NCBI GenBank assembly: GCA_947647735.1
Contig: CANSLJ010000001.1
Location: 62,001 to 126,000 of the forward strand
DNA length: 64,000 nucleotides
Direction of reading: 5' to 3'
Origin: an uncultured bacterium
GTDB taxonomy: Bacteria > Bacillota > Clostridia > Lachnospirales > Lachnospiraceae
Of the stretch, positions 7,432 to 60,711 are shown in pieces; positions within the stretch are counted from its first letter, which is position 1; each line of letters opens with the position of its first letter. Made by a program: the position numbers and the translations under genes. The notes under the pieces are model-generated. The model had not been told where the DNA came from, did not search any database, and saw nothing but the letters and a program-made list of their open reading frames with translations.

Positions 7432-8543
7432 TTGCGCTCGTCGATCAGTCTCTCCACCTCATCGGCAAGTTCCCTGGACGTTTCATCGAGACTGCTCTGC
7501 CGCGCCTCTCCAAGAGCCGCATCAACCGCCGCCTGCATCATACCGTCTTTTGTTAACTGCATGCTCTGCAGAGGATTATCGGAGATGCGCTGCAGCTTAA
7601 CGTCCCGCATATCCCGCAGAACCTGTGTTCCAAAGCTTCCGAAGATATAAGCCTCCTCGCTCTTTACGCTCACCTCACGCCGATAACTCTGCATCATCTC
7701 ACCTAACTGCCCTGTCGTAAAAGACTTATCCTTGAGAGCTTCCTTGAGAAACCTGTTTTGTCTGAGAAGATCCTGCGCAATGGAATCCGCCTGGGAAAGA
7801 AACCAGTGTCCGAAATCCCCCACCTTGTTTGACAGTTCCTCCACGCCCTTCTCATGATTTAAGGAGGACGTCATAACACCGGCTGCCGAATTATGTATCG
7901 CATCGGCGGCTGAATTCTCTTTCCCGGATGTATCGCCATCCTCCTCCGAAGCACCGTTCTCCAGTTCCTCCGCCGCCTTTTTCGCCTCTTCCATCGTCTT
8001 CAGCAGAGCCACCAGATCTCGGTTATTTTCATCGACTTCCTCCTTGCCCTGAGCAGACTTCATTGCCGCGATCTGCTGCGCCTCCTTCAACCTCCTCAGC
8101 GCTTCCTCCTCCTGAAAGTCCTTATTCTCCTGCATCTGTTCCTGCAGCTGCCTCTGCTGTTCAACAAGCTCTTTCATTAACGGATCATTGTACGACTTGT
8201 CGCTTCTCATCCTGCCATAGGCGGCGTTCATAACCTTTATCTGCTTCTCGAGCTCCTCCAGTTCGTCATAATATCCTTTTCTCGTCCTGGCATCAAACTG
8301 GGCTTCTTCCAGCTGACGGAGCATCACTTCCGCCATCTTGTCACTCTGTGCGCCCTGAACGTCCGCTCCCGGCTGAGCCGCCTGCTGCCTGCTTAAGTTT
8401 CTTCCCTCCTCTGAGATCGTAACCTCGTACTCCGGCCCAAACATGTTCTCTTCCGGCTGTACCTGCTCTGCATTTTCCGGGATGCCCTGCTCTACTGCCG
8501 GCATCATGTCCGCAGGGTTTACACCGATTCCTTTGATCAGCAT
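7341..8543 (-). CDS. Conserved-looking coiled-coil protein of unknown function
   Basis: Not recognised as a named family. The 400-residue protein has no signal peptide or membrane segment. It is rich in Glu, Gln and Lys, with long predicted helices (about residues 85-215) containing QQRQLQEQMQENKDFQEEEA, an acidic linker, and a C-terminal helical part. The start at 8543 follows GGAGG; the frame is open for 26 more codons upstream without a ribosome site. Its 3' end overlaps the read-through tail of the kinase gene by 91 bases in antisense. Transcribed alone. No function can be assigned. Confidence 0.7.
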   Translation of the reverse strand: MLIKGIGVNPADMMPAVEQGIPENAEQVQPEENMFGPEYEVTISEEGRNLSRQQAAQPGADVQGAQSDKMAEVMLRQLEEAQFDARTRKGYYDELEELEKQIKVMNAAYGRMRSDKSYNDPLMKELVEQQRQLQEQMQENKDFQEEEALRRLKEAQQIAAMKSAQGKEEVDENNRDLVALLKTMEEAKKAAEELENGASEEDGDTSGKENSAADAIHNSAAGVMTSSLNHEKGVEELSNKVGDFGHWFLSQADSIAQDLLRQNRFLKEALKDKSFTTGQLGEMMQSYRREVSVKSEEAYIFGSFGTQVLRDMRDVKLQRISDNPLQSMQLTKDGMMQAAVDAALGEARQSSLDETSRELADEVERLIDERNHVDRIPQNKKDGEEYRTQEKLLQPEVQES

Positions 8544-46165: not shown

Positions 46166-47221
46166 TCATACACCAAACCATTTCTTTGTTTTATTTGCAA
46201 TATGAACCAGAAAAAGCATAACCGGCACTTCAGTCAATACGCCAACTGTGGTAGCTAATGCTGCCGGAGAAGTCGTTCCGAATAACGCAATAGCAACTGC
46301 AACCGACAATTCAAAAAAATTCGATGCGCCGATCATCCCTGCAGGAGCCGCAACTTTATGCGGCAGTTTCAGAATCCGGCAGGCAATATATGCAATTGCA
46401 AAAATCAAAAATGTCTGCAATGTCAAAGGTATTGCGATCAAAATAATATGCAGCGGATTGTCTAAAATAATATTTCCTTGAAATGAAAAAATCATCACAA
46501 GTGTAAGCAGCAGGCCAATACTGGTTATATTATCAAATTTATGAATAAAAATATTTTCAAAATAGTCTGTCCCTTTTTTCTTAATAACCATTGAACGAGT
46601 CAGCATTCCGCCGACAAGCGGTATCACAACAAACAGCACTACTGAGAGGATCAGTGTATCCCACGGTACAGTAACATTGGAAACACCAAGCAAAAACTTT
46701 ACAATCGGCACAAATGCCACAAGTATGATCAAATCATTCGTTGCAACCTGTACGACTGTATAAGCAGGATCACCTTTTGTTAAATTACTCCATACAAACA
46801 CCATTGCCGTACATGGTGCCGCACCAAGCAGAACTGCTCCCGCAAGATATTCGGTTGCAAGGTCTGGTGTAATAAAAGACTTGAATATTATAAAGAAAAA
46901 CAAGCTTGCTATACCATACATAGAAAAAGGCTTGATCAGCCAGTTTACAACCCAGGTGACAAATAGCCCTTTTGGATTCTTTCCCACATTTTTTATACTC
47001 TGAAAATCTATCCGCATCATCATCGGGTAGATCATAAGCCAGATAAGTACCGCCATTGGAATAGATACTTTCGCATATTCAAAACGATTGAGAAATATTG
47101 GAACAGAAGGAAGAAATTTCCCGATCAAAATACCCAAAATCATACATAACAGTACCCAAAGTGTAAGGTATTTTTGAAAACCGCTGATACCCTGGCTTTT
47201 TTTCTGAACATTTTTTTGCAT
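46166..47221 (-). CDS. Acr3-type arsenite efflux permease
   Basis: A 351-residue, ten-span membrane exporter for arsenite. The key cysteine is in LLGAAPCTAMVFVWSNLTKG, with VATNDLIILVAFVPIVKFL and PAGMIGASNFFELSVAVAIA as further Acr3 blocks. The ATG at 47221 follows AAGGAG; an upstream GTG is possible. It lies at the 3' side of the ArsR/lipoyl cluster but beyond that operon's terminator and the amidotransferase gene. No ArsR-type box was noticed directly before it. Composition is AT-rich. Confidence 0.9.
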   Translation of the reverse strand: MQKNVQKKSQGISGFQKYLTLWVLLCMILGILIGKFLPSVPIFLNRFEYAKVSIPMAVLIWLMIYPMMMRIDFQSIKNVGKNPKGLFVTWVVNWLIKPFSMYGIASLFFFIIFKSFITPDLATEYLAGAVLLGAAPCTAMVFVWSNLTKGDPAYTVVQVATNDLIILVAFVPIVKFLLGVSNVTVPWDTLILSVVLFVVIPLVGGMLTRSMVIKKKGTDYFENIFIHKFDNITSIGLLLTLVMIFSFQGNIILDNPLHIILIAIPLTLQTFLIFAIAYIACRILKLPHKVAAPAGMIGASNFFELSVAVAIALFGTTSPAALATTVGVLTEVPVMLFLVHIANKTKKWFGV

Positions 47222-47275
47222 ATCACACACTCCTTATATAACTTTTTGAATATCTCTGTTTCTCCTTGCTTTATC

Positions 47276-48098: not shown

Positions 48099-48368
48099 TT
48101 AAGAACAACAGGATGCACTGTCATTCAGTGTCAGTTTTTCTTCCTCCGCATCAATAATAACCGTTCCCGTCCACTGGCGGGTATCATCATCCATCAAGAC
48201 CGGAATCCCATTTATCATATCCGGTTTTTCATTCGCTCCTGTTTTTACCAATTCAAAATTTAATGACTTTCCACAACAGGAACGTGTTGTATGCAGACGC
48301 AAACCGTCACATTGCTCTGCTTTAAGCGCCTCGATGATAATTTTTTTTGCTGCATCTGTAATCTGCAT
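48099..48368 (-). CDS. HesB-like Fe-S/redox protein (Cys form of HesB-like selenoprotein)
   Basis: An 89-residue protein of the HesB/IscA relatives. ITDAAKKIIIEAL is followed by SCCGKSLNFEL with Cys31 and Cys32, and the protein ends ASCCS with Cys87 and Cys88. In the known HesB-like selenoprotein group one of the cysteines is selenocysteine; here all are cysteine codons. Ribosome site GGAGG sets the start at 48368. It is the last gene of the ArsR operon and may handle Fe-S or thiol-bound metal. Confidence 0.8.
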   Translation of the reverse strand: MQITDAAKKIIIEALKAEQCDGLRLHTTRSCCGKSLNFELVKTGANEKPDMINGIPVLMDDDTRQWTGTVIIDAEEEKLTLNDSASCCS

Positions 48369-48394
48369 AATAACTACCTCCAAATATATTTTAC

Positions 48395-48808
48395 TCAATC
48401 CGACTCAAATACCACAGACACCAGGAGCGTCGCCGCATCAGCAACACACCCCGGGCACTCCCTAAGAACCTTTCCGGAGCCTGCTCCCTTCAATTCCTTG
48501 CAAATAATAGATTTATTTTTTTCCTGAAATCCCTTAATGATTTCTTTACTCACACGGTAAATTTCTCTCCGGCGGTTTCCGGCAGACGGATTTGTCTGGC
48601 TTACTTTCATGCTTGCAATGGCAATTGCGCCAGACAATGCACCGCATACACCTTCCATACATCCCATGCCAAACCCATAGCCTTCCACCATCTGGTACAT
48701 CTGTTCTTCACTTATTCCAACTCTGTCACAGAAAGCACAGGCAACAGCCTGACTGCAGTTATAACCGGACCGGTGATTCATGACCGCTTTTTCAACCCAA
48801 TGATCCAT
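48395..48808 (-). CDS. C_GCAxxG_C_C family redox protein
   Basis: A 137-residue protein of a cysteine-rich family named by its motif. The conserved pattern is visible as GYNCSQAVACAF (Cys18), GFGMGCMEGVCGALSGAI (Cys50, Cys55) and, near the C-terminus, Cys103 and CPGC (Cys118, Cys121). Members are found in anaerobes and are thought to bind Fe-S or work as redox proteins; function is not established. It precedes the HesB-like gene, 26 bases apart. Confidence 0.85.
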   Translation of the reverse strand: MDHWVEKAVMNHRSGYNCSQAVACAFCDRVGISEEQMYQMVEGYGFGMGCMEGVCGALSGAIAIASMKVSQTNPSAGNRRREIYRVSKEIIKGFQEKNKSIICKELKGAGSGKVLRECPGCVADAATLLVSVVFESD

Positions 48809-48909
48809 AATACGATATCCCTGCTTTCATCTTCCTGTCAGCAGGAGGGAACCAGGCTCTGTCACCTGTAAATAATCCATATGCCACTGTGGTTTTCATA
48901 GGTTTTTCC

Positions 48910-49083
48910 TCACTTTCCAGACTTTCTCCCTGATTCAGTGTCCTGCTGCGAGCCCTCCTCTATAATCTCCATATCACAACAGCCGCCTTTTTTCTCCGGC
49001 TCCTCCACGATCTCCATGTTACAGCAGCCGCCTGACTTATTCCCTCCAAACAAACTTGCGAATAACCCTTTCTTTTCACTCAT
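48910..49083 (-). CDS. 57-residue Cys-Cys repeat peptide
   Basis: A small protein behind GGAGG. It carries two copies of a GGCC(N/D)MEI(V/I)EE unit (Cys20-Cys21 and Cys35-Cys36) after an N-terminal KKGLFASLFGGNKS. The same N-terminal pattern (GFFGSLFSG...EGCCNLEI) begins the thioredoxin-like protein at 56827, so this is a recurring module of the cluster. Vicinal Cys-Cys pairs suggest binding of a soft metal or metalloid such as arsenite or copper; that is inference. It directly follows the permease gene. Confidence 0.75.
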   Translation of the reverse strand: MSEKKGLFASLFGGNKSGGCCNMEIVEEPEKKGGCCDMEIIEEGSQQDTESGRKSGK

Positions 49084-49097
49084 CTTATTTTCCTCCT

Positions 49098-50021
49098 TTA
49101 AAGAATGAAATTAAATACATAACCGGTGATCACCGCTACGGCAAAGATACAAAGCACAAAAGCGATTACCATCTTCTTTTTGAAAATGGAACTGAGCAGA
49201 GACACTTCCGGGATGCTGGCTCCCGCACCGCCTAAGATCAATGCGATCATAACGCCAGGGGAAACACCTTTGGAAATCAGAATGCTGGCAATCGGAATCA
49301 TCGTTTCGGTGCGTATATACATCGGGATGCCGACAACCGCAGCCAGAGGAACCGCCCAAAGGTTGGATGCGCCTGCAAAGTTTGCCAGAAGGTCTGTCGG
49401 TACAAATTCATAAATAAATGCACCGATGCCCGCACCCAGAAGCAGGAAAAGCACAACTCCCTTAAACAGCCCAAATGCATCCTTCAAGGAAAGTTTAAAT
49501 GCCTGAAGCTGTTTCTGCCAGAATGTTCCCTGCAGTGTTTCCCAGCTCACACCGTCCTGATGTCCTCCTTTCACCGTGACATTCTTTATCTCTTTTTCAA
49601 ATCCTGCCGCATCCAGGATCAGCCCCATAACAACAGCAAATACAAAAGTAAAGACCGAATAAACAATTGTGGCTTTCACCCCAAAGAACGCCAGCATCAG
49701 CGTAACAATCGCCGGATTCAGTATCGGGGATGTCAGCAGAAATGAAATTGCCCCGCAAAAAGGTGCCCCGCTCTTAAACAGGCCGACCAGAACCGGAATG
49801 GTAGAGCAGGAACAAAATGGCGTAACTGCCCCAAGCGCTGCTCCGAGAACACTGTTAAGCCCTTTTTTCGGCGTGGTCAGGATACGCTTAATGCGGTCCT
49901 GTGAGATATAAATCTGCAGCAGAGCAACCACAAAGCTGATACCGATGAACAGACCAAACAACTCGCCAAACAGCATCAAAAAGGTCTTCCCTGCATGAAT
50001 CCATGTTTCTGTTGTGAACAT
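49098..50021 (-). CDS. DUF318-family permease
   Basis: A 307-residue membrane permease with about eight spans. The family motif TPFCSCSTIPVLVGLF carries Cys70 and Cys72, and SPILNPAIVTLMLAFFGV follows. Some members (ArsP) export methylated arsenicals; others are linked to redox-active cysteine proteins. It follows the ArsR gene and has a TTCGAT box pair upstream. Substrate is unproven but a metalloid or small thiol conjugate is likely from context. Confidence 0.85.
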   Translation of the reverse strand: MFTTETWIHAGKTFLMLFGELFGLFIGISFVVALLQIYISQDRIKRILTTPKKGLNSVLGAALGAVTPFCSCSTIPVLVGLFKSGAPFCGAISFLLTSPILNPAIVTLMLAFFGVKATIVYSVFTFVFAVVMGLILDAAGFEKEIKNVTVKGGHQDGVSWETLQGTFWQKQLQAFKLSLKDAFGLFKGVVLFLLLGAGIGAFIYEFVPTDLLANFAGASNLWAVPLAAVVGIPMYIRTETMIPIASILISKGVSPGVMIALILGGAGASIPEVSLLSSIFKKKMVIAFVLCIFAVAVITGYVFNFIL

Positions 50022-50079
50022 AATCGTTCCCTCCTGATAAATAAATTTTTATATTTTCTTCTTTACATCGGACAAATAG

Positions 50080-50095
50080 TTCGATTTTTTTCGAT
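50080..50095. promoter_or_regulatory. TTCGAT box pair between arsR and permease
   Basis: Two TTCGAT copies one helical turn apart (50080-50085, 50090-50095). Same motif as at the arsR promoter and upstream of the thioredoxin-like gene. Confidence 0.5.
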
Positions 50096-50174
50096 GTATT
50101 GTTTTTCAGTAAAGCCACGCGTTCCAACGTGGCCTTATCGCATATTTATTGAATTATGAATGTTCCGTGAGGTA

Positions 50175-50522
50175 TCAGCACAATGAATCCCCCATCATCT
50201 GCTGCCTGTTATCACTGCAGCTGCATGAAACGGATCCCGTACTATATCCGGAAGCGGTCAGCACTCCTAGCAGCTCTGCTGCCTTCCTGCTTCCTGCCTC
50301 GCTTATGGAATAGTGTGTCCATTTGCCCTCCTTCCGGCTTTCAACGATGCCGGAATCACATAAAATTTTCATATGGTGCGACAGCGTTGACTGACTGATC
50401 TGTAAATTTTCCAATAATACGCAGGCACATTTCTCACCGCCGCGGAGCATCTCTAAAATCTGCAGACGGTTTTCATCACAAAAGGCTTTGAACACCCTTG
50501 CATCAGCAGCATGGTCTCTCAT
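50175..50522 (-). CDS. arsR: ArsR-family repressor, CxC type
   Basis: A 115-residue winged-helix metalloregulator. The first recognition helix region has KCACVLLENLQISQSTLSHH with Cys32 and Cys34, the position of the ELCVCDL-type thiolate site that binds As(III)/Sb(III) in classical ArsR. The C-terminal tail adds Cys100, Cys102 and Cys115, unusual and perhaps a second site. Its own promoter carries ATCGAAA boxes, so it is presumably autoregulated, and the same boxes precede the lipoyl cluster. Confidence 0.92.
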   Translation of the reverse strand: MRDHAADARVFKAFCDENRLQILEMLRGGEKCACVLLENLQISQSTLSHHMKILCDSGIVESRKEGKWTHYSISEAGSRKAAELLGVLTASGYSTGSVSCSCSDNRQQMMGDSLC

Positions 50523-50544
50523 TGCATCACCTCACATTTATTTT

Positions 50545-50588
50545 TTTCGATTTATTAACATTATATTCACCGAATCGAAAAATGTCAA
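50545..50588 (-). promoter_or_regulatory. arsR promoter with TTTCGAT inverted boxes
   Basis: Minus-strand TTGACA, 17 bases, TATAAT (50560-50588). One TCGAT box lies inside the spacer (50574-50580) and the inverted partner lies just downstream of the -10 (50545-50551), a good layout for repression. Confidence 0.75.
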
Positions 50589-50614
50589 TGTATTTTGCAA
50601 ATTTTTTATGAGCA

Positions 50615-51307
50615 TCAAAATCCTAAATAGAACATGTACAATGCGATCGCCATAATAGCTGCTCCCATCGCAATTTTTAAAACCTTACTGAAAACGCCAT
50701 ACTTCCGGCTCGCCGTAATTTTCTGCACAAATCCAACAGAAGTGCCTGCAATAACTACCAGGACGCTATGCCCAGCAGAATAAAGGAGCAATAACAGAAT
50801 GCCCCATAAAACATTCCCGCCTCTTGCCACCAGGCCAAGCAATACAATCAGTACAGGGGTGGCACAGGGAGAAGAAAATATCCCGCCCATAATTCCCGCC
50901 GCCAGAGCACCGATATATCCCTTCTTTGAATTTTTGGCATTCAGCTGAACAGAAGGAATAAACTGGTAGACATCCCATGTCTGCAAGGCCATGAGAACCA
51001 TCAGAACCCCCAGAATAAGATACCACCATCTACCTGACGTTCCCATCAGCTTACCTGCTAATGACGCAGCCGTTCCAAGCACCGTAAATGTAATCGCCAT
51101 TCCTCCGGCAAATGTCAGGGACAGCCTGAATGCTTTCTTCGTATTATTTCCACCTGTTCCCCCAACGTACCCGATAATTAACGGGACACTGGATAAGGCA
51201 CAGGGCGTAACAGAGGTCAACACACCTGCAGACAGCGCCAAAAACGGAGCGATCCATAAGTTTCCCATGATTTCTCTCGATAAGGCCTCAAGCCACTGTT
51301 CAATCAT
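50615..51307 (-). CDS. ccdA: CcdA-type thiol-disulfide membrane transporter
   Basis: A 230-residue, six-span CcdA/DsbD-centre protein that carries reducing equivalents across the membrane. The two redox cysteines are Cys36 in TPCALSS and Cys148 in SSPCATPV, at the expected places in spans 1 and 4. The ATG at 51307 follows GGAGGCGGG and overlaps the thioredoxin stop by eight bases. It should pass electrons to the membrane thioredoxin encoded just before it. No cytochrome c biogenesis genes are nearby, so another thiol target is expected. Confidence 0.92.
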   Translation of the reverse strand: MIEQWLEALSREIMGNLWIAPFLALSAGVLTSVTPCALSSVPLIIGYVGGTGGNNTKKAFRLSLTFAGGMAITFTVLGTAASLAGKLMGTSGRWWYLILGVLMVLMALQTWDVYQFIPSVQLNAKNSKKGYIGALAAGIMGGIFSSPCATPVLIVLLGLVARGGNVLWGILLLLLYSAGHSVLVVIAGTSVGFVQKITASRKYGVFSKVLKIAMGAAIMAIALYMFYLGF

Positions 51308-51878
51308 TTCCCGCCTCCATTTCTGCAATTACATTTCTTAACTGCTCTTCTGTAATTCCGCCCTGATGCACGGTAAATGCGATTTCCCCTGTATCCCTGT
51401 AACTATACTGTAAAAACTGGATTTCTTCATTTTCATCCGGGGCATATGGGTTTCCCTCAGAATCGATAAAAACCTGTGTTGGTATTACCTCTATCGGGAA
51501 ATCGGATGCCAGATCATTATATTTCCAGACATCAACAAACAAAACAATCGCTTCCCCTGCCATTTCTTCATTCAGGGTTTCCAGCACAGGAGCCATCGCT
51601 TTACACGGCGCACAGGAATCTGCGCCAAAATCAATCACAATTGGCAGCCCATAGGACTTCAATCCCTCAAGGTCTATCTCTTCTGTCACATGCAGCGGAA
51701 AATACCCTTCCACCGCTTCTTTTTCCTGCCGCATTTTCAGATCATCTGCTGACATCCCTTCCGCGACCGGTTCCTGCCCGTTTTTTACGAACCATACGCC
51801 TCCAACTGCACAGACGGCCAAAATCGTTACAACGATTTTTATAATAAGTTTCTTTTTTCCTTCCACAGACTCCTGCAT
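51300..51878 (-). CDS. Membrane-anchored thioredoxin-fold protein
   Basis: A 192-residue protein with an N-terminal anchor (LIIKIVVTILAVCAVGGVWF) and an extracytoplasmic thioredoxin domain. The active site is DFGADSCAPCKAMAP (Cys89, Cys92), and the cis-proline region is IPTQVFID. It works with CcdA, to which it is translationally coupled. The start at 51878 follows AGGAGG; an upstream in-frame TTG is possible. In the cluster it extends the redox system to outside the membrane. Confidence 0.92.
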   Translation of the reverse strand: MQESVEGKKKLIIKIVVTILAVCAVGGVWFVKNGQEPVAEGMSADDLKMRQEKEAVEGYFPLHVTEEIDLEGLKSYGLPIVIDFGADSCAPCKAMAPVLETLNEEMAGEAIVLFVDVWKYNDLASDFPIEVIPTQVFIDSEGNPYAPDENEEIQFLQYSYRDTGEIAFTVHQGGITEEQLRNVIAEMEAGND

Positions 51879-51902
51879 GATCAAAAACCTCCTGTTCTTC
51901 TG

Positions 51903-52904
51903 TCATAGCGGTACATCAGCAAATAACCTCTGCAGATCCCGACTGGTAAGCTGCCTGATATATTTCTCGCATTCTATCTCCTGAACCTTTCCGGCCACTG
52001 TTTCTTTTCTCCACGGAATTCCCAAAAACTGGCCCTCAAGCTCCGAAACCGGCTTCAACTCAAAAAAATCCCCCTGCAGACAAATGTCCTCAATGACTGC
52101 ATCCTTTATCTTTACATATAAAGAAATCATGCCGCTTTCAAATTTCATTTCATTCCATAAGTCCATCTCCGGCGACGCCCCATAAGTCCATTCCCATGTG
52201 CGATACTTTTTCTCCGCCAGTTTTTCTATTTCATCCCTCTCCTCCGCTAAAATCCCGCGCCGCCTGAGCTCTCTGCAGTATTCTCTTTGATACGCATGTT
52301 CCACAAGTTCCTGAAACCGGCCGATATCCATCTCTTTTGGAAGAAAAGATGCAATGTTCCCTACACGGCTCCTGACAGATGTCACTCCTTTCGATGTAAA
52401 TTTCACCGGCCCGGGCATCAGCGCCCGTGAAAGAACCGCCAGATCACTGTCAAACAACAGTGTTCCATGATGCAGTATCCGGTTTCTCCAGAAATACTGT
52501 GCATTGCCTGAAATCTTCTTCCCTCCCGCTGTCAGGTCATTCCTCCCGCTGAAATCTGCCGGAACTCCTATATCCCGCAGCGCTTTTATCACAGGTTCCA
52601 GAAAACAGGAAAAATCATTTTTCCGGAAAGAATCCTCTGATCTTATCATTGTAAAATTCAGGTTTCCAAGGTCATGATATACCGCACCGCCGCCCGATAA
52701 GCGCCTGACTGTCCAAATGCCATGCTCCCTCACATAATCTAAATTTAGCTCCCGGTAAATATTCTGGTTTTTTCCTATTACAACCGCCGGTTCATTTCGC
52801 CATAGCATGAACAGATCATCCTTTAGATCTGTCCTTTTCATGAAATACTCCTCAACTGCCAGATTAAATGCCGGATCTGTTGACGGGTTTATGATCTGCT
52901 GCAA
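51903..52904 (-). CDS. lplA: Lipoate-protein ligase
   Basis: A 333-residue ligase that attaches lipoate to lysine of lipoyl domains. The catalytic region is WTVRRLSGGGAVYHDLGNLN, followed by NDLTAGGKKISGNAQYFWR with the essential lysine. A C-terminal accessory domain is present. The start is assigned to a TTG at 52904 behind AGGAG; an ATG at 52949 lies within the upstream gene and has no ribosome site. Its nearest probable substrate is the lipoyl domain fused to the DGC protein in the same cluster (Lys215). Confidence 0.9.
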   Translation of the reverse strand: MQQIINPSTDPAFNLAVEEYFMKRTDLKDDLFMLWRNEPAVVIGKNQNIYRELNLDYVREHGIWTVRRLSGGGAVYHDLGNLNFTMIRSEDSFRKNDFSCFLEPVIKALRDIGVPADFSGRNDLTAGGKKISGNAQYFWRNRILHHGTLLFDSDLAVLSRALMPGPVKFTSKGVTSVRSRVGNIASFLPKEMDIGRFQELVEHAYQREYCRELRRRGILAEERDEIEKLAEKKYRTWEWTYGASPEMDLWNEMKFESGMISLYVKIKDAVIEDICLQGDFFELKPVSELEGQFLGIPWRKETVAGKVQEIECEKYIRQLTSRDLQRLFADVPL

Positions 52905-52926
52905 TAATTTTCTCCTCACCTGTCTT

Positions 52927-53355
52927 TTATGATCCGGCAGAAGCCGCATCTATTTTTTTACATATTTCTTCTGCTATTTTGTCCACCATGTGGTAGTGTT
53001 CTTCGGTCAGGTCCTTCATAGATACCGTTTTTGAAAAGATAACTTCCGGGTCCAGGAAATCTGTAAGCACCACACAATCTCTTACCCGGCCGGAATATTT
53101 TTCGGTGGACTTCCTCGCACAATGCTTTTCACAGGCATCTACCGAAATGACAGGAAAGTTTTTTGCAAAATTGCGTTCTTCTTCCCCTCCTGCTAAAAAG
53201 AGTGGCAGACAAAGCGAGATTGCCTGCCCCGGCCGCAGCTCCTCCATGACCTTTCTGGTCGCCATCCTGGTAAGCGTACCGCCAAGCATTTCCTCCCCGC
53301 TGCAGGAGATGACTCCGATCTGCATCTTGAATGCCCCAATATTGATATCCGCCAT
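52927..53355 (-). CDS. DGC-domain putative zinc-binding protein (variant)
   Basis: A 142-residue member of the DGC family. The family's Asp-Gly-Cys is here Asp73-Ala74-Cys75 in VDACEKHCARK, with Cys79 after it; the N-terminal CSGEEMLGG corresponds to the first Cys motif. Two more cysteines (Cys49, Cys94) are present. It starts one base after the stop of the next DGC gene, behind AAGGAGG. The family is called zinc-binding, but its biochemical role is unknown. It precedes lipoate ligase. Confidence 0.8.
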   Translation of the reverse strand: MADINIGAFKMQIGVISCSGEEMLGGTLTRMATRKVMEELRPGQAISLCLPLFLAGGEEERNFAKNFPVISVDACEKHCARKSTEKYSGRVRDCVVLTDFLDPEVIFSKTVSMKDLTEEHYHMVDKIAEEICKKIDAASAGS

Positions 53356-53356
53356 G

Positions 53357-53758
53357 TTACGCTTCCTCCTTTGCAAGTTCTTTTACTTTTTCAGATACCT
53401 GTTCTGCCAGTTCACCTGCCATATTCCAGCCCGCCTCTGTCAGATAGGTTCCTGTCCCGGCATCCTCACCCCGGTGTGCCCGCATCGTATCAACAGCCCG
53501 GAATGCCGCTTTCACATTTCCTCCTGCCGCCTCCAGTGTCTTTGCGGCACACATCTTCGGGCAACCGTCCACGGCAATACAGGTTTTACCTTCAATACTT
53601 TCCTTTGCATCTTCATCCGCTGTCATAACACGGGCAAGACAGACCGCCTCACAAAGTTCCGGACACAGTTCCTCTGTTACTTTGAGTCCTGCCTCCCTTG
53701 ACAACAGCCCAAACACCTTTCCAATCCCGCTGCACGCAGCCACCTTCACTTTAGACAT
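53357..53758 (-). CDS. DGC-domain putative zinc-binding protein
   Basis: A 133-residue DGC protein. VAACSGIGKVFGLLS is the N-terminal motif, and IAVDGCPKMCAAKTLE the central Asp-Gly-Cys box (Asp64, Cys66, Cys70); Cys32, Cys36 and Cys40 lie between. Its start codon overlaps the stop of the DGC-lipoyl gene by eight bases. Three DGC paralogues in a row suggest subunits of one assembly or sequential carriers. Confidence 0.85.
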   Translation of the reverse strand: MSKVKVAACSGIGKVFGLLSREAGLKVTEELCPELCEAVCLARVMTADEDAKESIEGKTCIAVDGCPKMCAAKTLEAAGGNVKAAFRAVDTMRAHRGEDAGTGTYLTEAGWNMAGELAEQVSEKVKELAKEEA

Positions 53759-54611
53759 GAAATTCATCCACCTTTCTTTTCATAATCGGAAAATATCCGT
53801 TAAAATCGTAAAGCAGTCCTTTATCTTCTTCAAAATCTGCCAGTTCTATTTCTGCAATCCATCCCTGTTCATAAGGGTTCTGATTGATACGCTCCGGTTC
53901 ATTCAGCAGGTCCTCATTCACTCTTGTAACGGTGCCGCTCACAGGGCTTACAATTTCAAATACAGCTTTGCCGGATTCCAGGGAGCCAACCTCATCAAAC
54001 TGGGAAATCTCAGCGCCTACATTCGGTGCAGTAAAAAACATGATATCAGACAGGCTCTGCTGTACATAATCCGTAACCCCGATCCGTGCCTTACCTCCGG
54101 ATACATATGCCCAGACATCATTCTCATTAAAGAAAAAGGCTTCTTCCTCTGGAATACGGAACATAAATTTATCCTTCTGGTAAGTATCATAGGTAAGCTG
54201 TGCCGGGAAAAAAGACGTTTCCTGACCACTTTCCGCTGTATCTTCCTCTGTCTTTAGGCGGTCAGCCAGGTTCCCAATCAAAAGTTTTTCTGTTTCCCCC
54301 AAACGCAGGGAATCTGTTTTCAATGCAATGCCTGCGCTCTTTGCCTCCTCGCTGATATTGACTTTCTTCACAATTTTAAGTCCCTTTTCCGCTGCAAGTT
54401 TACTGGCACACCGGGAGGCACATCCATCAATCACCAGCAGAGGCTTTTCCTTGGCAATCCTGTTATACCGGGTATCCGCCACACGATAGAAAACCGGGCA
54501 GATGATCTCGCTCCCAGTCTCCTCTGATAACCGGATCGCAAGCTCCCCCGCCGCACATCCGGCACACTTGTCTAAACCATTACAGGGCAGTATGGCATAT
54601 TCTTTACTCAT
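53751..54611 (-). CDS. DGC domain fused to a GcvH-like lipoyl domain
   Basis: A 286-residue fusion. Residues 1-115 form a DGC domain: PCNGLDKCAGCA, then VIDGCASRCASK (Asp62-Gly63-Cys64, Cys68). Residues 155-286 are a GcvH/LbpA-like lipoyl domain: NENDVWAYVSGGKARIGVTD and the lipoyl-lysine hairpin GSLESGKAVFEIVSPVSGTV (Lys215), then INQNPYEQGWIAEIEL. Glycine cleavage system genes (gcvT, gcvP) are absent, so the lipoyl group probably serves another redox reaction. Lipoate ligase and dihydrolipoamide dehydrogenase are in the same cluster. The start overlaps the ferredoxin stop by eight bases. Confidence 0.88.
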   Translation of the reverse strand: MSKEYAILPCNGLDKCAGCAAGELAIRLSEETGSEIICPVFYRVADTRYNRIAKEKPLLVIDGCASRCASKLAAEKGLKIVKKVNISEEAKSAGIALKTDSLRLGETEKLLIGNLADRLKTEEDTAESGQETSFFPAQLTYDTYQKDKFMFRIPEEEAFFFNENDVWAYVSGGKARIGVTDYVQQSLSDIMFFTAPNVGAEISQFDEVGSLESGKAVFEIVSPVSGTVTRVNEDLLNEPERINQNPYEQGWIAEIELADFEEDKGLLYDFNGYFPIMKRKVDEFHV

Positions 54612-54897
54612 TTGCTTCCATCTCCTTCCTGACTTGTTTGATATGGGCAGTTGTTTCGGATTTGTTTGGGAAGGAAATGGCATCTACGCCACATGCTTTC
54701 CCGCAGGCCCGGCAGAATACCACACAGTTTTCCGGATTCTTTACCACCAGACGCTGCCCGCCCTCTTCCCTGACCTCATATACCTTATGTGGACAGAATT
54801 TTACGCACTCCATACAATCATTACATTTATTGTAATCAATCCGCGGGGACCAGTCGATCTTTTCACGGGGCACCCCCATAAATGTTTCTCCGCTCAT
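54604..54897 (-). CDS. Two-cluster 4Fe-4S ferredoxin-type protein
   Basis: A 97-residue electron carrier. Cluster I: CNDCMECVKFCP (Cys25, 28, 31, 35). Cluster II: CVVFCRACGKAC (Cys58, 62, 65, 69), whose spacing (x3, x2, x3) differs from the standard and lacks the following proline. Both ends carry extra residues compared with plain clostridial ferredoxins. It is placed between the HdrA-like gene and the DGC-lipoyl gene and coupled to the latter, so it is probably the electron link to the lipoyl carrier. Confidence 0.88.
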   Translation of the reverse strand: MSGETFMGVPREKIDWSPRIDYNKCNDCMECVKFCPHKVYEVREEGGQRLVVKNPENCVVFCRACGKACGVDAISFPNKSETTAHIKQVRKEMEANE

Positions 54898-54900
54898 TTC

Positions 54901-55275
54901 CTATACCTCCTCAAAGCCAAGTTCTTCCAGTGCCTTCCTTACTTTCTCAAAAGCCTGGTCATTCGTCATATCACGGATGTCTAACATCACACAGTCCTTC
55001 TCAACATCCAGGCCTGCCTCCTTAAACGCTGCCCGGAACATTTTTTTCTGCATATTCGGTGCACAGGCTCCAATGATCACTTTCCGGTTCGCTTTCAGGA
55101 AATCCGCCAGAAAACGGTCCCCGTCCTCCTCGCAGAGCTGCGGATGAATAAAACCATATTCCACGGGAAGCTCTACCCTTACCTGATTAATGAAATCCCA
55201 GATATCCATTGCCTGGAACCCCGGACATTTCCCGGTGCATACACACATAAGAAAACCATAACGCTGTTCTTCCAT
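54901..55275 (-). CDS. Stand-alone HdrA N-terminal-domain protein
   Basis: A 124-residue protein that resembles only the N-terminal part of heterodisulfide reductase subunit A. VIIGACAPNMQKKMFRAAFK followed by EAGLDVEKDCVMLDIRDM is the HdrA block, and the cysteines CVCTGKC (11, 13, 17), Cys48, Cys71 and Cys95 correspond to its cluster-binding region. The FAD domain of HdrA is missing. GGAGG precedes the ATG. With the ferredoxin it could bind or relay electrons in an Hdr-like reaction; the partner flavoprotein may be the dihydrolipoamide dehydrogenase next to it (inference). Confidence 0.75.
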   Translation of the reverse strand: MEEQRYGFLMCVCTGKCPGFQAMDIWDFINQVRVELPVEYGFIHPQLCEEDGDRFLADFLKANRKVIIGACAPNMQKKMFRAAFKEAGLDVEKDCVMLDIRDMTNDQAFEKVRKALEELGFEEV

Positions 55276-55332
55276 ATTTCACTGCCTCCATCTTATTCTT
55301 TTATTTGTTACCCTGTAAGGGGGTAATGCAGG

Positions 55333-56733
55333 TTAAATTTTATGTATCGCTTTCCCGGCAATCTCTCCACACGCTTCCCATACCGCTTCACTGACACTGG
55401 GATGGGGATGTATCATATCTGCGAGCATTTCTGCCGTTGCCCCAACCGTAACAGCCAGAGTCAGTTCTGAAATCATCTCAGAAGCGTCCGCCCCTAAAAT
55501 CTGGCCTCCAAGAATAACTCCCTTCTCATCCGCCACTACTTTTACAAAACCTTCTCTTTCTCCAAGTGTCAGTACACGCCCATTATGGCGCATATAAAAT
55601 TTCCCTACCTGCGGATGAATTCCTTTCCGCTCTGCTTCTTCCTCCGTCATGCCGACCGACGCACTCTCCGGCGAAGTATAAATGCAGGCAGGAACGGCCC
55701 TGTAGTTTAACGTATTCTTCATTCCCATCGCATTTTCCGCCGCAATGCGGCCTTCCATAAACGCCAGATGTGCCAGAAGTTTTCCTCCGGTCACATCCCC
55801 GGCCGCATAAACATCCGGAACCGAAGTCTGCATATACTCATCCACCACGATCCTGCCGCCTTCTGCCATTTCAAGTCCCAACGCCCCCACAGCTTCCGTC
55901 TCCAATTCTCTTCCTATGGAAAGCAGGACATTTTCACACGCAAGCTCCTGGTCTTTCCCCTTATCCTCATAAACGACAGTAAAACCGTCGGATTCCTTTC
56001 TTATCTCTTTCACTTTTACAGATGTTTTGATCACGATCCCCTGCCGTTTCAGAATCTTTGCCAATTCCGCAGCGACCTCGTAATCTTCTGTCGATACGAT
56101 CCGGTCTTTTAACTCCAATACCGTAACCTTTGTACCGGCCGCAGCGAACATAGCTGCAAACTCAACGCCTATCACTCCCCCGCCAATAACAGCCAGCGTC
56201 TCCGGAACCTTTGTAATTTCTAACATGTCTGTACTGGTAAGGACTCCGTCCAGATCTGCCCCTTTTATAAAAGACGGGATCATAGGCTTTGAACCTGTAG
56301 CCAGGATCAGCTTCCCGCAGGAAACGATTCTCTTTCCGTCTGTTGTTTCAACTTCCAGTGTGTGTGCCGACCGTACAGTTCCTCTCCCATAGATGACATC
56401 AATCTGATTTCCTTTCATAAGCTGCTCAATGCCTATCCTCAGATTTTTTACAATCCTGTCTTTCCGGAGCCCTGCCATATCCCAGCGGATATTTTCTACT
56501 CTGCTTTCAACGCCGAATTCTTTCGCCCCTTTCGCAGAGGAAATAAGTTCTGATGTCCTCAGCAATGCCTTTGCAGGAATACATCCCGCATTCATGCAGA
56601 CTCCTCCAAGCGCCTGTTTCTCAATCAAGACTACCCTTGCCCCCATCTGGGATGCCCGGATTGCCGCCACGTATCCGGCCGGGCCTCCTCCAAGAACAGC
56701 GACATCATATGTTATCTCTGATGTATGTGTCAT
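55333..56733 (-). CDS. lpdA: Dihydrolipoamide dehydrogenase
   Basis: A 466-residue FAD disulfide oxidoreductase. The FAD loop is VAVLGGGPAGYVAAI, the redox pair GGVCMNAGCIP (Cys46, Cys51), the NAD loop VIGGGVIGVEFAAMFA, the second FAD motif VYAAGDVTGGKLLAH, and the C-terminal HPHPSVSE supplies the catalytic His-Glu. All essential residues are present. No 2-oxoacid dehydrogenase genes are adjacent; the only lipoyl protein nearby is the DGC fusion. A short TTACCC/GGGTAA hairpin precedes the stop side of the gene. Confidence 0.93.
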   Translation of the reverse strand: MTHTSEITYDVAVLGGGPAGYVAAIRASQMGARVVLIEKQALGGVCMNAGCIPAKALLRTSELISSAKGAKEFGVESRVENIRWDMAGLRKDRIVKNLRIGIEQLMKGNQIDVIYGRGTVRSAHTLEVETTDGKRIVSCGKLILATGSKPMIPSFIKGADLDGVLTSTDMLEITKVPETLAVIGGGVIGVEFAAMFAAAGTKVTVLELKDRIVSTEDYEVAAELAKILKRQGIVIKTSVKVKEIRKESDGFTVVYEDKGKDQELACENVLLSIGRELETEAVGALGLEMAEGGRIVVDEYMQTSVPDVYAAGDVTGGKLLAHLAFMEGRIAAENAMGMKNTLNYRAVPACIYTSPESASVGMTEEEAERKGIHPQVGKFYMRHNGRVLTLGEREGFVKVVADEKGVILGGQILGADASEMISELTLAVTVGATAEMLADMIHPHPSVSEAVWEACGEIAGKAIHKI

Positions 56734-56826
56734 AAACCACCTTCCTTAAAACCTGCTATGCCATTTATGCACTTCTTTTTCACACATATATGCTTGTCAA
56801 ATCGCATTTTTTCGATATGTAAGGCA

Positions 56827-57195
56827 TTAAAAAATTTCTTCCAACAATTTTATAATGTCGTCTGTTTTCAGAACCTTTCCAACAGAAACAACTTTTTGAT
56901 CCAGAACCAATGCCGGAACACTCATCACGCCATATTCCATAATCTTCTGAATATCAGAAATATGTCTCACTTCCATATCAAGCCCCAGTTTTGCGACCGC
57001 CGCTTCCACATTTGCCTGCAGTATTTTACAGTTTGCACACCCTGTCCCCAAAACGATAATGGAACTGGACGAAGTCTCTATAGGAGCATCTGTTTCTTTT
57101 TTCACTGAATCTTCTGTAATCTCCAGGTTACAGCATCCTTCGGATTGTTTTCCGGAAAACAGACTGCCAAAGAATCCTTTTCTGCCGCTCATCAT
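56827..57195 (-). CDS. Thioredoxin-fold redox-active disulfide protein with Cys-Cys leader
   Basis: A 122-residue protein. Residues 1-30 are a KGFFGSLFSGKQSEGCCNLEI module, the same kind as the small protein at 48910. Residues 45-122 form a small thioredoxin domain with TGCANCK (Cys53, Cys56) and the cis-proline block MSVPALVLDQ, as in the redox-active disulfide protein 2 group. ATG ATG at 57195/57192 follow AAAGGAG. It is the first gene of the lipoyl cluster, downstream of the TTTCGAT-boxed promoter. Confidence 0.88.
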   Translation of the reverse strand: MMSGRKGFFGSLFSGKQSEGCCNLEITEDSVKKETDAPIETSSSSIIVLGTGCANCKILQANVEAAVAKLGLDMEVRHISDIQKIMEYGVMSVPALVLDQKVVSVGKVLKTDDIIKLLEEIF

Positions 57196-57221
57196 TTATT
57201 CTCCTTTCTAAAATTTATTAC

Positions 57222-57300
57222 TTCGATATTTTTCGATATATTTTTCAAATTCATTTTTTTCGATTTAATGTTAGTATACACTCATTTCGAAAAAAATCAA
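57222..57300 (-). promoter_or_regulatory. Promoter of the lipoyl cluster with four TTTCGA boxes
   Basis: Minus-strand TTGATT, 16 bases, TATACT (57273-57300). TTCGAT copies at 57222, 57231 and 57258 and TTTCGAAA at 57285-57292 surround it. The last falls inside the spacer, as at arsR. Another TTTCGAT sits at 56810-56816 just downstream of the first gene. Confidence 0.65.
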
Positions 57301-57542: not shown

Positions 57543-58193
57543 TCATTTCACTTTACGTCCTGTAACAGCTTCAAAATGGTACTTTATAATACCAAGATCC
57601 ATCTTCGTATAGAATCCTTTTCCAGCTTTGGCAGATGCCTCCCCGTTTTCAAGTGTCACGTAGAACTTCTGCTGGTTCATCGCAGTAGGTGCCAGCAAAG
57701 CCGCTTCCATTCCCTTTGAAAACCAGTCCGGCATGCCCGATGCGCAATTACAAAGCTGCTCCATAGGTTTATTTTTATGCGCAGTTCCCTGTGTGGTTCC
57801 ATAACCCAGCGCAATGATACAAGCCAGCTTTTCCCCTCTCCTGATCTGTGCTGTGCTCTTTCCATGGGTCATTGCAACCCAGCAGGTATTCAGCCCAAGT
57901 TCCTGTGCTTTTAACACAAGCTTCTCCCCATAATACCCTGCTTTTTCATCCAGACCGGCATCCTTTTTGCCCACAAGCGCAATGTAGTTTTCTACACCGC
58001 TGAATTTTCCGTAATGCGCCATCATACTGTCAAAGCATTTGGGTTCATCGAAAATGATCTGAATGTTCATACCGCTTTCTTTGTTACATTCTTTTACAAG
58101 CGAAGTAAGCGTTTCCCTCTTCCCGCTCTCAATCTTCTTTTCGCTGTACTGCCGCACACTATGGCGCGCCTTCATGATTTCTAAAAAATCCAT
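57543..58193 (-). CDS. Nitroreductase-family flavoprotein
   Basis: A 216-residue FMN-dependent oxidoreductase. The N-terminal FMN site is KARHSVRQYSEKKI, the middle EKAGYYGEKLVLKAQELGLN followed by TCWVAM, and the C-terminal EAALLAPTAMNQQKF; these are the family landmarks for a nitroreductase of the NADH dehydrogenase-like sort. Substrate is unknown. An inverted repeat GTTTATG/CATAAAC (58275-58295) upstream could be an operator. It follows the flavodoxin fragments but is read alone. Confidence 0.88.
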   Translation of the reverse strand: MDFLEIMKARHSVRQYSEKKIESGKRETLTSLVKECNKESGMNIQIIFDEPKCFDSMMAHYGKFSGVENYIALVGKKDAGLDEKAGYYGEKLVLKAQELGLNTCWVAMTHGKSTAQIRRGEKLACIIALGYGTTQGTAHKNKPMEQLCNCASGMPDWFSKGMEAALLAPTAMNQQKFYVTLENGEASAKAGKGFYTKMDLGIIKYHFEAVTGRKVK

Positions 58194-59030: not shown

Positions 59031-59366
59031 TGTATAAACTGTATATTTTTAAAACTTTTCCTTTAAAATCCCTTAAAATCAATACTTTCCGCCCCACCAT
59101 GGGCTTGTGGTGGGGCGAAAAGCCAACTGTATAAACTGTATAAATTATGCACATTTTTTCCATGACTTTAAAAATTAAGTGTATAAAATAATCGAAACAA
59201 CCTGTTTATACAGTTGAGCGGAGACATTCTTCCGCACTGTGAAACAGTGCAAAATATCAAAAAAATAAGAAAGAAAAAATTTATACACATTTTTTTAAAT
59301 ATTTTTAAATTTATCTGTATAAATCTTTCATTTTAAATTTAACGAAATGAAAGAGAGGTTTATACA
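59031..59366. repeat. Iterons TGTATAAA and hairpins: probable replication origin
   Basis: Eight exact copies of TGTATAAA lie before rep: plus-strand at 59031, 59128, 59137, 59180 and 59316, minus-strand at 59205, 59280 and 59359. Two hairpins lie among them: CGCCCCACC/GGTGGGGCG (59090-59117), the only GC-rich spot in the region, and GCACTGT/ACAGTGC (59234-59250). This is the layout of a rolling-circle double-strand origin with Rep-binding iterons. The nick site is not identified. The 422-base gap holds no gene. Confidence 0.65.
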
Positions 59367-59367
59367 G

Positions 59368-60711
59368 ATGAAAAGCAGAGTATTTCATTGTGTGCAATAC
59401 GAATTTAGTCCTAAAGATGGAACCGATTTTCAATTTAATGAAAGTAATATTATAAATTGTTTGGCTCATAAATCAATCAAGAAATATGCATATGTTAGGC
59501 ATGATAAAGATGTATATTCAAAAGATGATAAAGAGTTGTACGGTCGCAAAATAGGCGATCCCAAAAATGATCATTGGCATGTGATTTTAAAGACAGATGT
59601 GGCTATTGATGTGGAAGTTATAGCAAAATGGTTAGGTGTGCCACCTCAACAAATAGAGATTCCAAAAGGTAAAGGGGCATTTTTAGACAATGTTCAGTAT
59701 CTTACACATGAAGATGATAAACAGCAAAAAATGGGTAAATTTTTGTACCCAGATGAAGAAATACATAGCAATTTTGACTTTAGAGCCGAATTAACCAAAA
59801 GGGACGAAAACAAGCTAAAGTATGGTCGAGATTTAGACCACGAACAACAAATACTATATGATGTAATGTACGGCGGTAAAACAATCAGACAAGTGATTGA
59901 TGAGGATAAAATCTTTTACATGAACAGCTATAAAAAGGTTGATAGTGCAAGGCTAAAATATATACAACAATGTAATCCTCCAACAATGAGAATCAATTAT
60001 TACATCGAGGGCAAAGGTGGTGTTGGCAAAGGTCTGGCAAGCAGGGCAATCGCTCGCTCTCTTTATCCAGACTTAGAAAAGGATGATGATATTTTCTTTT
60101 GCATTGGTGACGGCAAAGCAACATTCGAGGGTTATGACGGCCAGCCTGTCATTATATGGAATGACTGCCGATCATTTGAATTGTTCAGTCTTTTAGGCAG
60201 CAGAGGGAATATATTTAATGTATTCGACATTCATCCGCAAGCGATTAGACAGAATGTAAAATACAGTTCAATCAATTTAATCAATACAGTTAATATCGTT
60301 AATTCGGTGCAATCATATCAAGAATTTTTAAACGGTTTAGCAGGTGAATATAATGACTATAAGGCAGAGGACAAAAGCCAATCATATAGACGATTTCCAA
60401 TCATTACTCTTTTAAGGCAGGACGATATTTCAGTTCTGTTAAATAAAGGGGTATTTGAGGATAGTATAGAAGACTTTACGGAATATATTCAGTACTCACA
60501 ACTTGTCGGAAATTTTCAAAAAATAGCACAAGCCTGCGGAAATAATTTTCCCATACAAAGAAAAATTGAAACTCAATTTATGCAACCAGTCGTTGAAAAG
60601 CATAATGAGTTGTTAGCAAAGAATAATCAAACATATACTGATGAGGAATTATTAGAAATGTTTAAGGATTACGGAAAAACAGTACCTATTGATCCCACAC
60701 TTCCCTTTTAA
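59368..60711 (+). CDS. rep: Rolling-circle Rep with HUH endonuclease and SF3-type helicase domains
   Basis: A 447-residue replication initiator. N-terminal HUH endonuclease: FHCVQYEF, the His-x-His motif DHWHVILK (His69, His71) and the catalytic-tyrosine candidate in NVQYLTHE (Tyr111). C-terminal helicase: Walker A IEGKGGVGKG (215-222), Walker B region GYDGQPVIIWNDC, LLGSRG and a motif-C-like INTVNIVNS. This two-domain form is that of CRESS-DNA viruses and the related bacterial pCRESS-type replicons, not of ordinary small RCR plasmid Reps. The start at 59368 has AGAGG upstream; an ATG at 59347 has none. Strong terminator downstream. Confidence 0.82.
   Translation: MKSRVFHCVQYEFSPKDGTDFQFNESNIINCLAHKSIKKYAYVRHDKDVYSKDDKELYGRKIGDPKNDHWHVILKTDVAIDVEVIAKWLGVPPQQIEIPKGKGAFLDNVQYLTHEDDKQQKMGKFLYPDEEIHSNFDFRAELTKRDENKLKYGRDLDHEQQILYDVMYGGKTIRQVIDEDKIFYMNSYKKVDSARLKYIQQCNPPTMRINYYIEGKGGVGKGLASRAIARSLYPDLEKDDDIFFCIGDGKATFEGYDGQPVIIWNDCRSFELFSLLGSRGNIFNVFDIHPQAIRQNVKYSSINLINTVNIVNSVQSYQEFLNGLAGEYNDYKAEDKSQSYRRFPIITLLRQDDISVLLNKGVFEDSIEDFTEYIQYSQLVGNFQKIAQACGNNFPIQRKIETQFMQPVVEKHNELLAKNNQTYTDEELLEMFKDYGKTVPIDPTLPF

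Follow-up and report, generated by a model that had tools for sequence, protein, structure and literature searches.

Why would a lipoyl carrier protein and its ligase be encoded next to genes for arsenic resistance? This question is raised by a 64,000-nt stretch of an uncultured Lachnospiraceae genome (assembly GCA_947647735.1, contig CANSLJ010000001.1, positions 62,001 to 126,000 of the forward strand; hereafter the window). Its minus strand encodes a DGC domain fused to a GcvH-like lipoyl domain (the fusion), two stand-alone DGC proteins (DGC2 and DGC3), a two-cluster ferredoxin (Fdx) and a stand-alone N-terminal domain of HdrA (HdrAN). An earlier note on positions 48099..57195 had read these and the neighbouring genes as an undescribed system in which a lipoylated DGC protein shuttles thiols or a thiol-bound metalloid. 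Using family models and sequence, we located every gene named there on the minus strand; an ACR3 exporter just outside that range had been missed (Table 1). Because of this exporter, the locus is an arsenic-resistance island, containing both an ArsR regulator and an arsenite exporter. The core of the system is HdrAN–Fdx–fusion–DGC2–DGC3, and as a gene system it is well supported. As to its role, we give about an even chance to the reading that ArsR controls it and that it belongs, as an accessory, to anaerobic arsenic-resistance islands, where it would provide dithiol redox chemistry for arsenicals that are exported by ACR3 or ArsP.

The module is sporadic in its distribution and conserved in its order. 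A pattern scan in which a single genome stood for each GTDB species found the full fusion in 15 loci; such a scan detects close relatives only. The fusion matched 46 of the 391 genomes of the class (E 1e-20); seven of these contain it at full length (in eight places, window included), and the remaining matched genomes contain the GcvH part only. With an HdrAN profile, 398 genomes of the phylum yielded 24 matches, of which nine are strong and full-length (window included), one is partial (G755) and 14 are weaker (E 9e-32 to 2e-35). The eight other strong HdrAN loci were fetched and the core is present in them, and the G755 locus (L088) is the one locus of the core set without a fusion. The first 22 fetched loci had been selected by the fusion; HdrAN is present in all of them, together with 21 proteins called DGC2 and 21 called DGC3. 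We observed that HdrAN is followed by the fusion on the same strand in all 29 non-window loci holding a fusion, so that the proposed conservation of the neighbourhood holds, and a ferredoxin motif lies between the two in 28 of them (the exception is L039). The named carriers, among them Sinanaerobacter chloroacetimidivorans, Caloramator fervidus and Fusibacter sp. 3D3, belong to Bacillota and Bacteroidota, and the metagenome-assembled genomes (MAGs) of L043–L045 are titled without a phylum.

The conservation extends to individual residues. Lys215 and the four DGC cysteines of the fusion are invariant in all 23 aligned fusions. For DGC2, C12, C69 and C73 are present in 22/22 rows and C43 in 20/22, and for DGC3, C25, C56, C82 and C86 are present in 22/22. 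All eight ferredoxin cysteines are invariant across the 17 aligned rows, as are five cysteines of HdrAN (C11, C13, C17, C48, C71) in 23/23 rows. Identity to the window's protein is 68–96% for HdrAN (21 other loci) and 44–87% for the fusion (22 other aligned loci); HdrAN is therefore more constrained than the fusion. The CcdA and membrane thioredoxin (Trx) arm, which had been counted as part of the system, turns out to be accessory: CcdA is found at nine and Trx at seven of the 31 core loci (window included), and a Thioredoxin_3 gene at 13.

We then compared the surroundings of the core to random regions. ACR3-, ArsA-, ArsD-, ArsC- and ArsP-type genes were called with one pipeline in core loci and in 40 random 19.4-kb regions; these controls come from eight carrier genomes, five per genome, and G403, G621, G644 and G749 are close kin. 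Such arsenic-type genes were found at 20 of the 31 core loci (window included) and in one random region, L129, which overlaps the core locus of its own genome; another control, L098, overlaps a different core locus by ~2.6 kb. After dropping four near-copies, arsenic-type genes remain at 17 of 27 core loci (Fisher p 3.7e-8). An arsenite methyltransferase (ArsM) occurs at three further loci, namely L039 (291.1 bits, cut-off 263), L082 (338.1 bits) and, short of the cut-off, L040 (205.6 bits). With ArsM the counts are 23/31, and 20/27 without near-copies, although the ArsM query was added only after the neighbour in L039 had been noticed; it has no match among the 40 controls. An ArsR gene lies directly upstream of the core operon at nine of the 31 loci and within two genes at 12, and the control open reading frames include one ArsR-like protein among 829. 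The metalloid-linked setting that the earlier note had proposed is thus found again at other loci.

The HdrAN–Fdx pair also occurs by itself. Eight of the 14 weaker HdrAN matches were fetched (L089–L096, at ~9.2–10.2 kb in each), and these contain HdrAN and a short ferredoxin without the fusion and without DGC or lipoyl genes. Arsenic-type genes lie beside the pair in all eight. This separates HdrAN–Fdx from the rest of the module, as a two-gene unit found repeatedly in arsenic islands where the lipoyl genes are missing. That such pairs are kept without lipoate suggests that HdrAN–Fdx is able to work with further thiol proteins.

GcvH-type domains present a lipoyl arm, and the fusion carries a lipoyl-lysine motif in a GcvH fold. 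Together with the adjoining lipoate-protein ligase (LplA), this leads us to infer that Lys215 is lipoylated. From 22 genomes screened for GCV_H, 11 were searched for E2 (PF00198), ligase (PF21948) and GDC-P (PF02347). In five of the 11 (the window's assembly G000, and G121, G096, G779 and G781), we found one LplA above the cut-off, adjoining the core, no GDC-P above the cut-off and no E2; G121 is a single-contig genome of 99% completeness. In the window's assembly, which is 86.6% complete, the LplA of the core is the sole PF21948 match, PF00198 has no match, and the one PF02347 match reaches 22.2 bits, below the cut-off of 26. GCV_H is represented in the five genomes by the fusion alone, besides one short partial match (22–28 bits) each in G121, G096 and G781, which are probably biotin carriers. 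Because there is no E2, no GDC-P and a sole ligase beside the core, lipoylation looks dedicated to the fusion in these five genomes. The suggestion that the local ligase serves the fusion is thus strengthened there; a ligase was found in all 11 genomes, and the other six have at least one E2 each. At one locus only, L080, we observed a second link between DGC pairs and lipoate, where another DGC2–DGC3 pair has as neighbours a second LplA and a separate Biotin_lipoyl-type domain (35.9 bits, above 22.1).

The island also has shared ArsR-type boxes. The pattern ATCGAAAAA occurs seven times in the window compared to 1.3 expected, a number that none of 100 shuffles reaches, and six of the seven occurrences are in intergenic stretches of this island. 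The longer ATCGAAAAAWATNNAWNT has four occurrences without mismatches in the whole 4.1-Mb assembly, all of them in the island, before the genes of Thioredoxin_3 (two), ArsR and the permease; read backwards as a control, it has no occurrence in the assembly. A variant box precedes lpd and the core operon. In the relative L034, boxes are found at the same four promoters. Since the four promoters have boxes in both the window and L034, which the operator comparison covers, we suggest that one ArsR may govern all four units.

These observations can be combined into a mechanism. The local LplA would attach lipoate to Lys215, and the lipoyl arm would be a mobile dithiol moving among Lpd, the DGC cysteines and HdrAN–Fdx. 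Lpd interconverts lipoyl disulfide and dithiol using NAD(H), and here it would exchange the electrons of the lipoyl arm with NAD(H), while the same thiol system may trade low-potential electrons, one at a time, with the HdrAN–Fdx pair. Tight binding of As(III) is a property of dithiols, dihydrolipoate among them. Trivalent arsenic, or a metalloid similar to it, might be bound and handed on by the lipoyl arm and by the three DGC proteins with their four-cysteine sites, the arm carrying either the trivalent metalloid or electrons for one. Arsenic, or the enzymes acting on it, would be held reduced and export would proceed by ACR3 or ArsP. The direction of electron flow and the reaction itself are put forward tentatively. 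Of the thiol or metalloid shuttle envisaged in the earlier note, the conserved neighbourhood and the metalloid setting are retained here, and the CcdA arm is accessory. A lipoyl-domain variant has also been linked to the arsenic response in worms, according to the available part of PMC6453569.

Several points weigh against a role in arsenic resistance. In eight of the 31 core loci (L036, L038, L043, L045, L052, L080, L081, L088), these queries find no arsenic gene within the fetched stretch; one of them, L038, belongs to an arsenate-growing Fusibacter, and ArsR is at most two genes away in L036, L038, L045, L052 and L080. Some loci in the arsenic counts are cut by contig ends, and the queries derive from these same loci. 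For other loci, the SBF and ArsP labels come from phmmer matches to query proteins, only a part of which was also examined with family models, and they may take in non-arsenic members of the families. Lpd lies near 17 and LplA near ten of the 27 deduplicated core loci. PF00364 was outside the genome-wide searches, which leaves room for other lipoyl acceptors. The box pattern was built from the very sites that it later matched, so that only its absence elsewhere is informative. Lastly, HgcA-like genes at three of the 31 core loci and a MerB fusion at L044 mean that the module might bind mercury or a broader class of ligands.

If arsenic is not bound by the module, it might be a general anaerobic thiol/disulfide supply through which thioredoxins, ArsC or ArsM receive electrons of NADH and ferredoxin and which serves metalloid stress indirectly, the DGC proteins being zinc or Fe–S redox proteins. 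The recurrence of Trx, CcdA and Thioredoxin_3 genes is in line with such a supply, as are the occurrence of HdrAN–Fdx alone in arsenic islands and the presence of ArsC or ArsM, which need thiol reductants, near some loci. However, a plain thioredoxin reductase would presumably suffice for this purpose, and the DGC proteins and the lipoyl fusion stay together also at loci without a called Trx or CcdA. We consider a general supply unlikely, though worth keeping in mind.

It seems distinctly improbable to us that the module handles sulfur in the manner of sHdr with LbpA, with sulfane sulfur or a thiol as the cargo of the lipoyl-DGC protein and with shared ArsR-type regulation behind the arsenic setting. 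This reading draws on the joint presence of a lipoate-binding protein, an Hdr-derived domain and a dedicated ligase, as in sHdr (PMC6067878, available part), on the ArsR-type repressors to which sHdr is also subject (PMC12423496, available part) and on the cysteine desulfurase-like gene near nine of the core loci; but ACR3-, ArsD-, ArsC- and ArsP-type genes are strongly enriched, and Pfam scans of 17 window proteins revealed no HdrB/HdrC-like or Etf gene. A role in mercury or organometal handling instead of arsenic, near the HgcAB, MerB or SAO-type systems, appears most improbable. The HgcA-like genes (L036, L046, L048), the MerB domain in L044 and weak SaoE, TsoR, TsoB and SaoL scores point in this direction, yet the SAO and Tso scores are far below the cut-offs and arsenic markers are much commoner. 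In addition, hgcAB itself is described as often adjoining ars genes (PMC7438021 and PMC10349881, available parts).

One carrier of the core (L038) is Fusibacter sp. 3D3. As far as the available text of PMC9751042 goes, this bacterium grows with arsenate without ArrAB by a metabolism that the authors term uncharacterized, both of its ArsC proteins work in E. coli, and the authors favour a working model of ArsC, thioredoxin and electron bifurcation; the main text contains none of the terms lipo-, heterodisulfide, DGC, zinc-binding or glycine cleavage. It is quite unlikely in our estimate that the lipoyl-DGC protein and HdrAN–Fdx themselves perform a lipoate- and ferredoxin-dependent reaction on arsenic, reducing arsenate or organoarsenicals. 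If they do, such direct redox of arsenicals might account in part for how this strain grows on arsenate without ArrAB. Known roles of lipoate include central carbon metabolism and dissimilatory sulfur oxidation (PMC10332631, available part), and a dedicated lipoyl protein with its ligase in arsenic islands would add another. The module supplies testable genes for the handling of arsenicals by anaerobes and hints at a new way in which they might handle arsenic-like poisons. The affinity of dithiols for As(III) fits a role of lipoate in arsenic islands.

Within the window, the genes from HdrAN through ccdA overlap or lie at most 18 bases apart, and 57 bases separate the end of lpd from the start of HdrAN; because of this spacing, lpd to ccdA likely form one transcript. 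A leader, KGxFxSLFxG...GCCNxEI, is common to the 57-aa peptide and the N-terminal end of the Thioredoxin_3 protein (visual) and is possibly a metal-binding tag; repeats resembling those of the peptide are also seen at 8399–8611 in L034 (visual). The small Cys-rich protein has relatives at two other core loci, L049 and L054 (phmmer). Between ACR3 and the core lies a class-I glutamine amidotransferase-like peptidase C26 (47276–48010); its relatives are found in L051 and L054, out of the 30 core loci besides the window, and in none of the 40 control regions. Directly upstream of the island is a TM1586-type nitroreductase (57543–58193), called among the 31 core loci solely in the window. A plasmid Rep_OBD-type replication protein (59347–60711) follows ~2 kb beyond the island, a hint of mobility.

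Table 1. Genes and predicted operator sites of the island, in window coordinates and in the direction of transcription.
Feature	Position	Strand	Basis and remarks
Pair of ArsR-type boxes preceding the Thioredoxin_3 gene	57220..57264	-	Pattern search
Small thioredoxin-like protein, Thioredoxin_3 / MTH895-ArsE family	56827..57195	-	TIGR00412, 95.9 bits (cut-off 62)
Variant box ATCGAAAAAATGCGAT, preceding lpd and the core operon	56801..56816	-	Like box at the same place in L034
Dihydrolipoyl dehydrogenase (Lpd)	55333..56733	-	TIGR01350, 510.7 bits (cut-off 408.8)
HdrAN, stand-alone HdrA N-terminal domain, 124 aa	54901..55275	-	Sequence profile and fold
Two-cluster ferredoxin	54604..54897	-	Fer4 families; CxxCxxCxxxC and CxxxCxxCxxxC
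DGC-GcvH (lipoyl) fusion, 286 aa	53751..54611	-	DGC residues ~6-93, GCV_H ~162-269; Lys215 codon 53967-53969
DGC2, stand-alone DGC protein	53357..53767	-	Pfam DGC, 48.5 bits
DGC3, stand-alone DGC protein	52927..53376	-	Pfam DGC, 58.7 bits; likely true start 53355 (visual)
Lipoate-protein ligase (LplA)	51903..52949	-	TIGR00545, 389.4 bits (cut-off 280)
Thioredoxin with N-terminal hydrophobic segment and CAPC	51300..51884	-	Pfam Thioredoxin, 51.5 bits; segment and motif visual
CcdA / DsbD transmembrane domain	50615..51328	-	Pfam DsbD_TM, 86.1 bits
ArsR-type box upstream of arsR	50534..50551	-	Just after a TTGACA-17-TATAAT promoter (visual)
ArsR/SmtB regulator with CAC motif	50175..50522	-	NF033788, 88.8 bits (cut-off 55); motif visual
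ArsR-type box upstream of the ArsP-type permease	50078..50095	-	Pattern search
ArsP_1 family permease (DUF318)	49098..50021	-	Pfam ArsP_1, 182.7 bits
57-aa CC-rich peptide	48910..49083	-	Matches no family; repeated GGCC[ND]MEI
C_GCAxxG_C_C redox protein	48395..48808	-	Pfam PF09719, 109.3 bits
Small Cys-rich protein	48099..48398	-	No family match; HesB-like by analogy only
ACR3 arsenite efflux transporter	46166..47230	-	TIGR00832, 378.1 bits (cut-off 282.8)

Other core loci have neighbours of their own. In L039 (12769–14421), a single 550-aa protein combines ferredoxin, DUF2703 and arsenite methyltransferase, adjoining LplA and the core. Relatives of its DUF2703 part are found at eight of the 31 core loci (L035, L036, L039, L042, L051, L080, L084, L085) and in none of the 40 controls, and may be a further partner of the core. 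The cysteine desulfurase-like gene recurs near the core together with a small FeS-domain protein (L034 8633–10401, L051, L054, L055, L080, L084, L086, L087), each at 9/31 core loci and 1/40 controls, that control being in all likelihood L129 with its overlapping core locus. In L046 (12153–13184), from a Bacteroidales MAG, the DGC core and an ArsC-like gene are directly followed by HgcA (445.7 bits, cut-off 275). L044 (15376–16686) encodes a fusion of a Thioredoxin domain with a MerB-like domain (alkylmercury lyase).

Finally, we compared the module to known systems. Unlike GcvH, the fusion, at 98.2 bits, does not reach the gcvH equivalog cut-off of 115.85 bits, and the window's assembly has no GcvP above the cut-off. 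In a tree, 30 H halves of fusions fall on one side of a branch and 23 GcvH proteins of the class on the other (support 100/100); this branch is long (1.85), and LbpA and other GcvH-like proteins were left out of the tree. HdrAN matches the N-terminal Fe–S domain of HdrA by profile and fold and is predicted to hold a cluster. Its chain has no FAD/thioredoxin-reductase or ferredoxin domains, and it contains an extra invariant cysteine, Cys17, that is missing from HdrA in two alignments. For the stress operon with GcvH-L, we take a sirtuin and a macrodomain to belong to the operon, and Pfam scans found neither among the 17 window proteins. Similarly, for what we take to be the SAO organometal system, known here by its NCBIfam model names, NCBIfam scans of 14 window proteins gave no Sao model above the cut-off, and SaoE reaches 122.9 bits (cut-off 325) with the ArsP-type permease. 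With ars operons (ArsR, ACR3, ArsP, ArsC, ArsD, ArsA, ArsM) the locus has the neighbourhood and the type of regulator in common, and we know of no ars gene set that includes the core module. A literature search covering partial texts yielded no paper that appears to describe the module, whose gene content matches no described system that we found; it is apparently undescribed, as the earlier note had held. The resemblance to sHdr seen there stands for the lipoyl carrier, the Hdr-derived domain and the ligase, and fails for the HdrB/HdrC-like genes, none of which is among the 17 window proteins scanned. In the available part of PMC6067878, the sHdr/LbpA system likewise combines a GcvH-fold lipoyl carrier with an Hdr-derived protein and a lipoate ligase in the cluster, which here adjoins the carrier gene cluster, and some sHdr systems have an ArsR-type regulator as well. 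The present module differs from it in having its carrier fused to DGC, in retaining only the N-terminal domain of HdrA and in its setting among arsenic genes.

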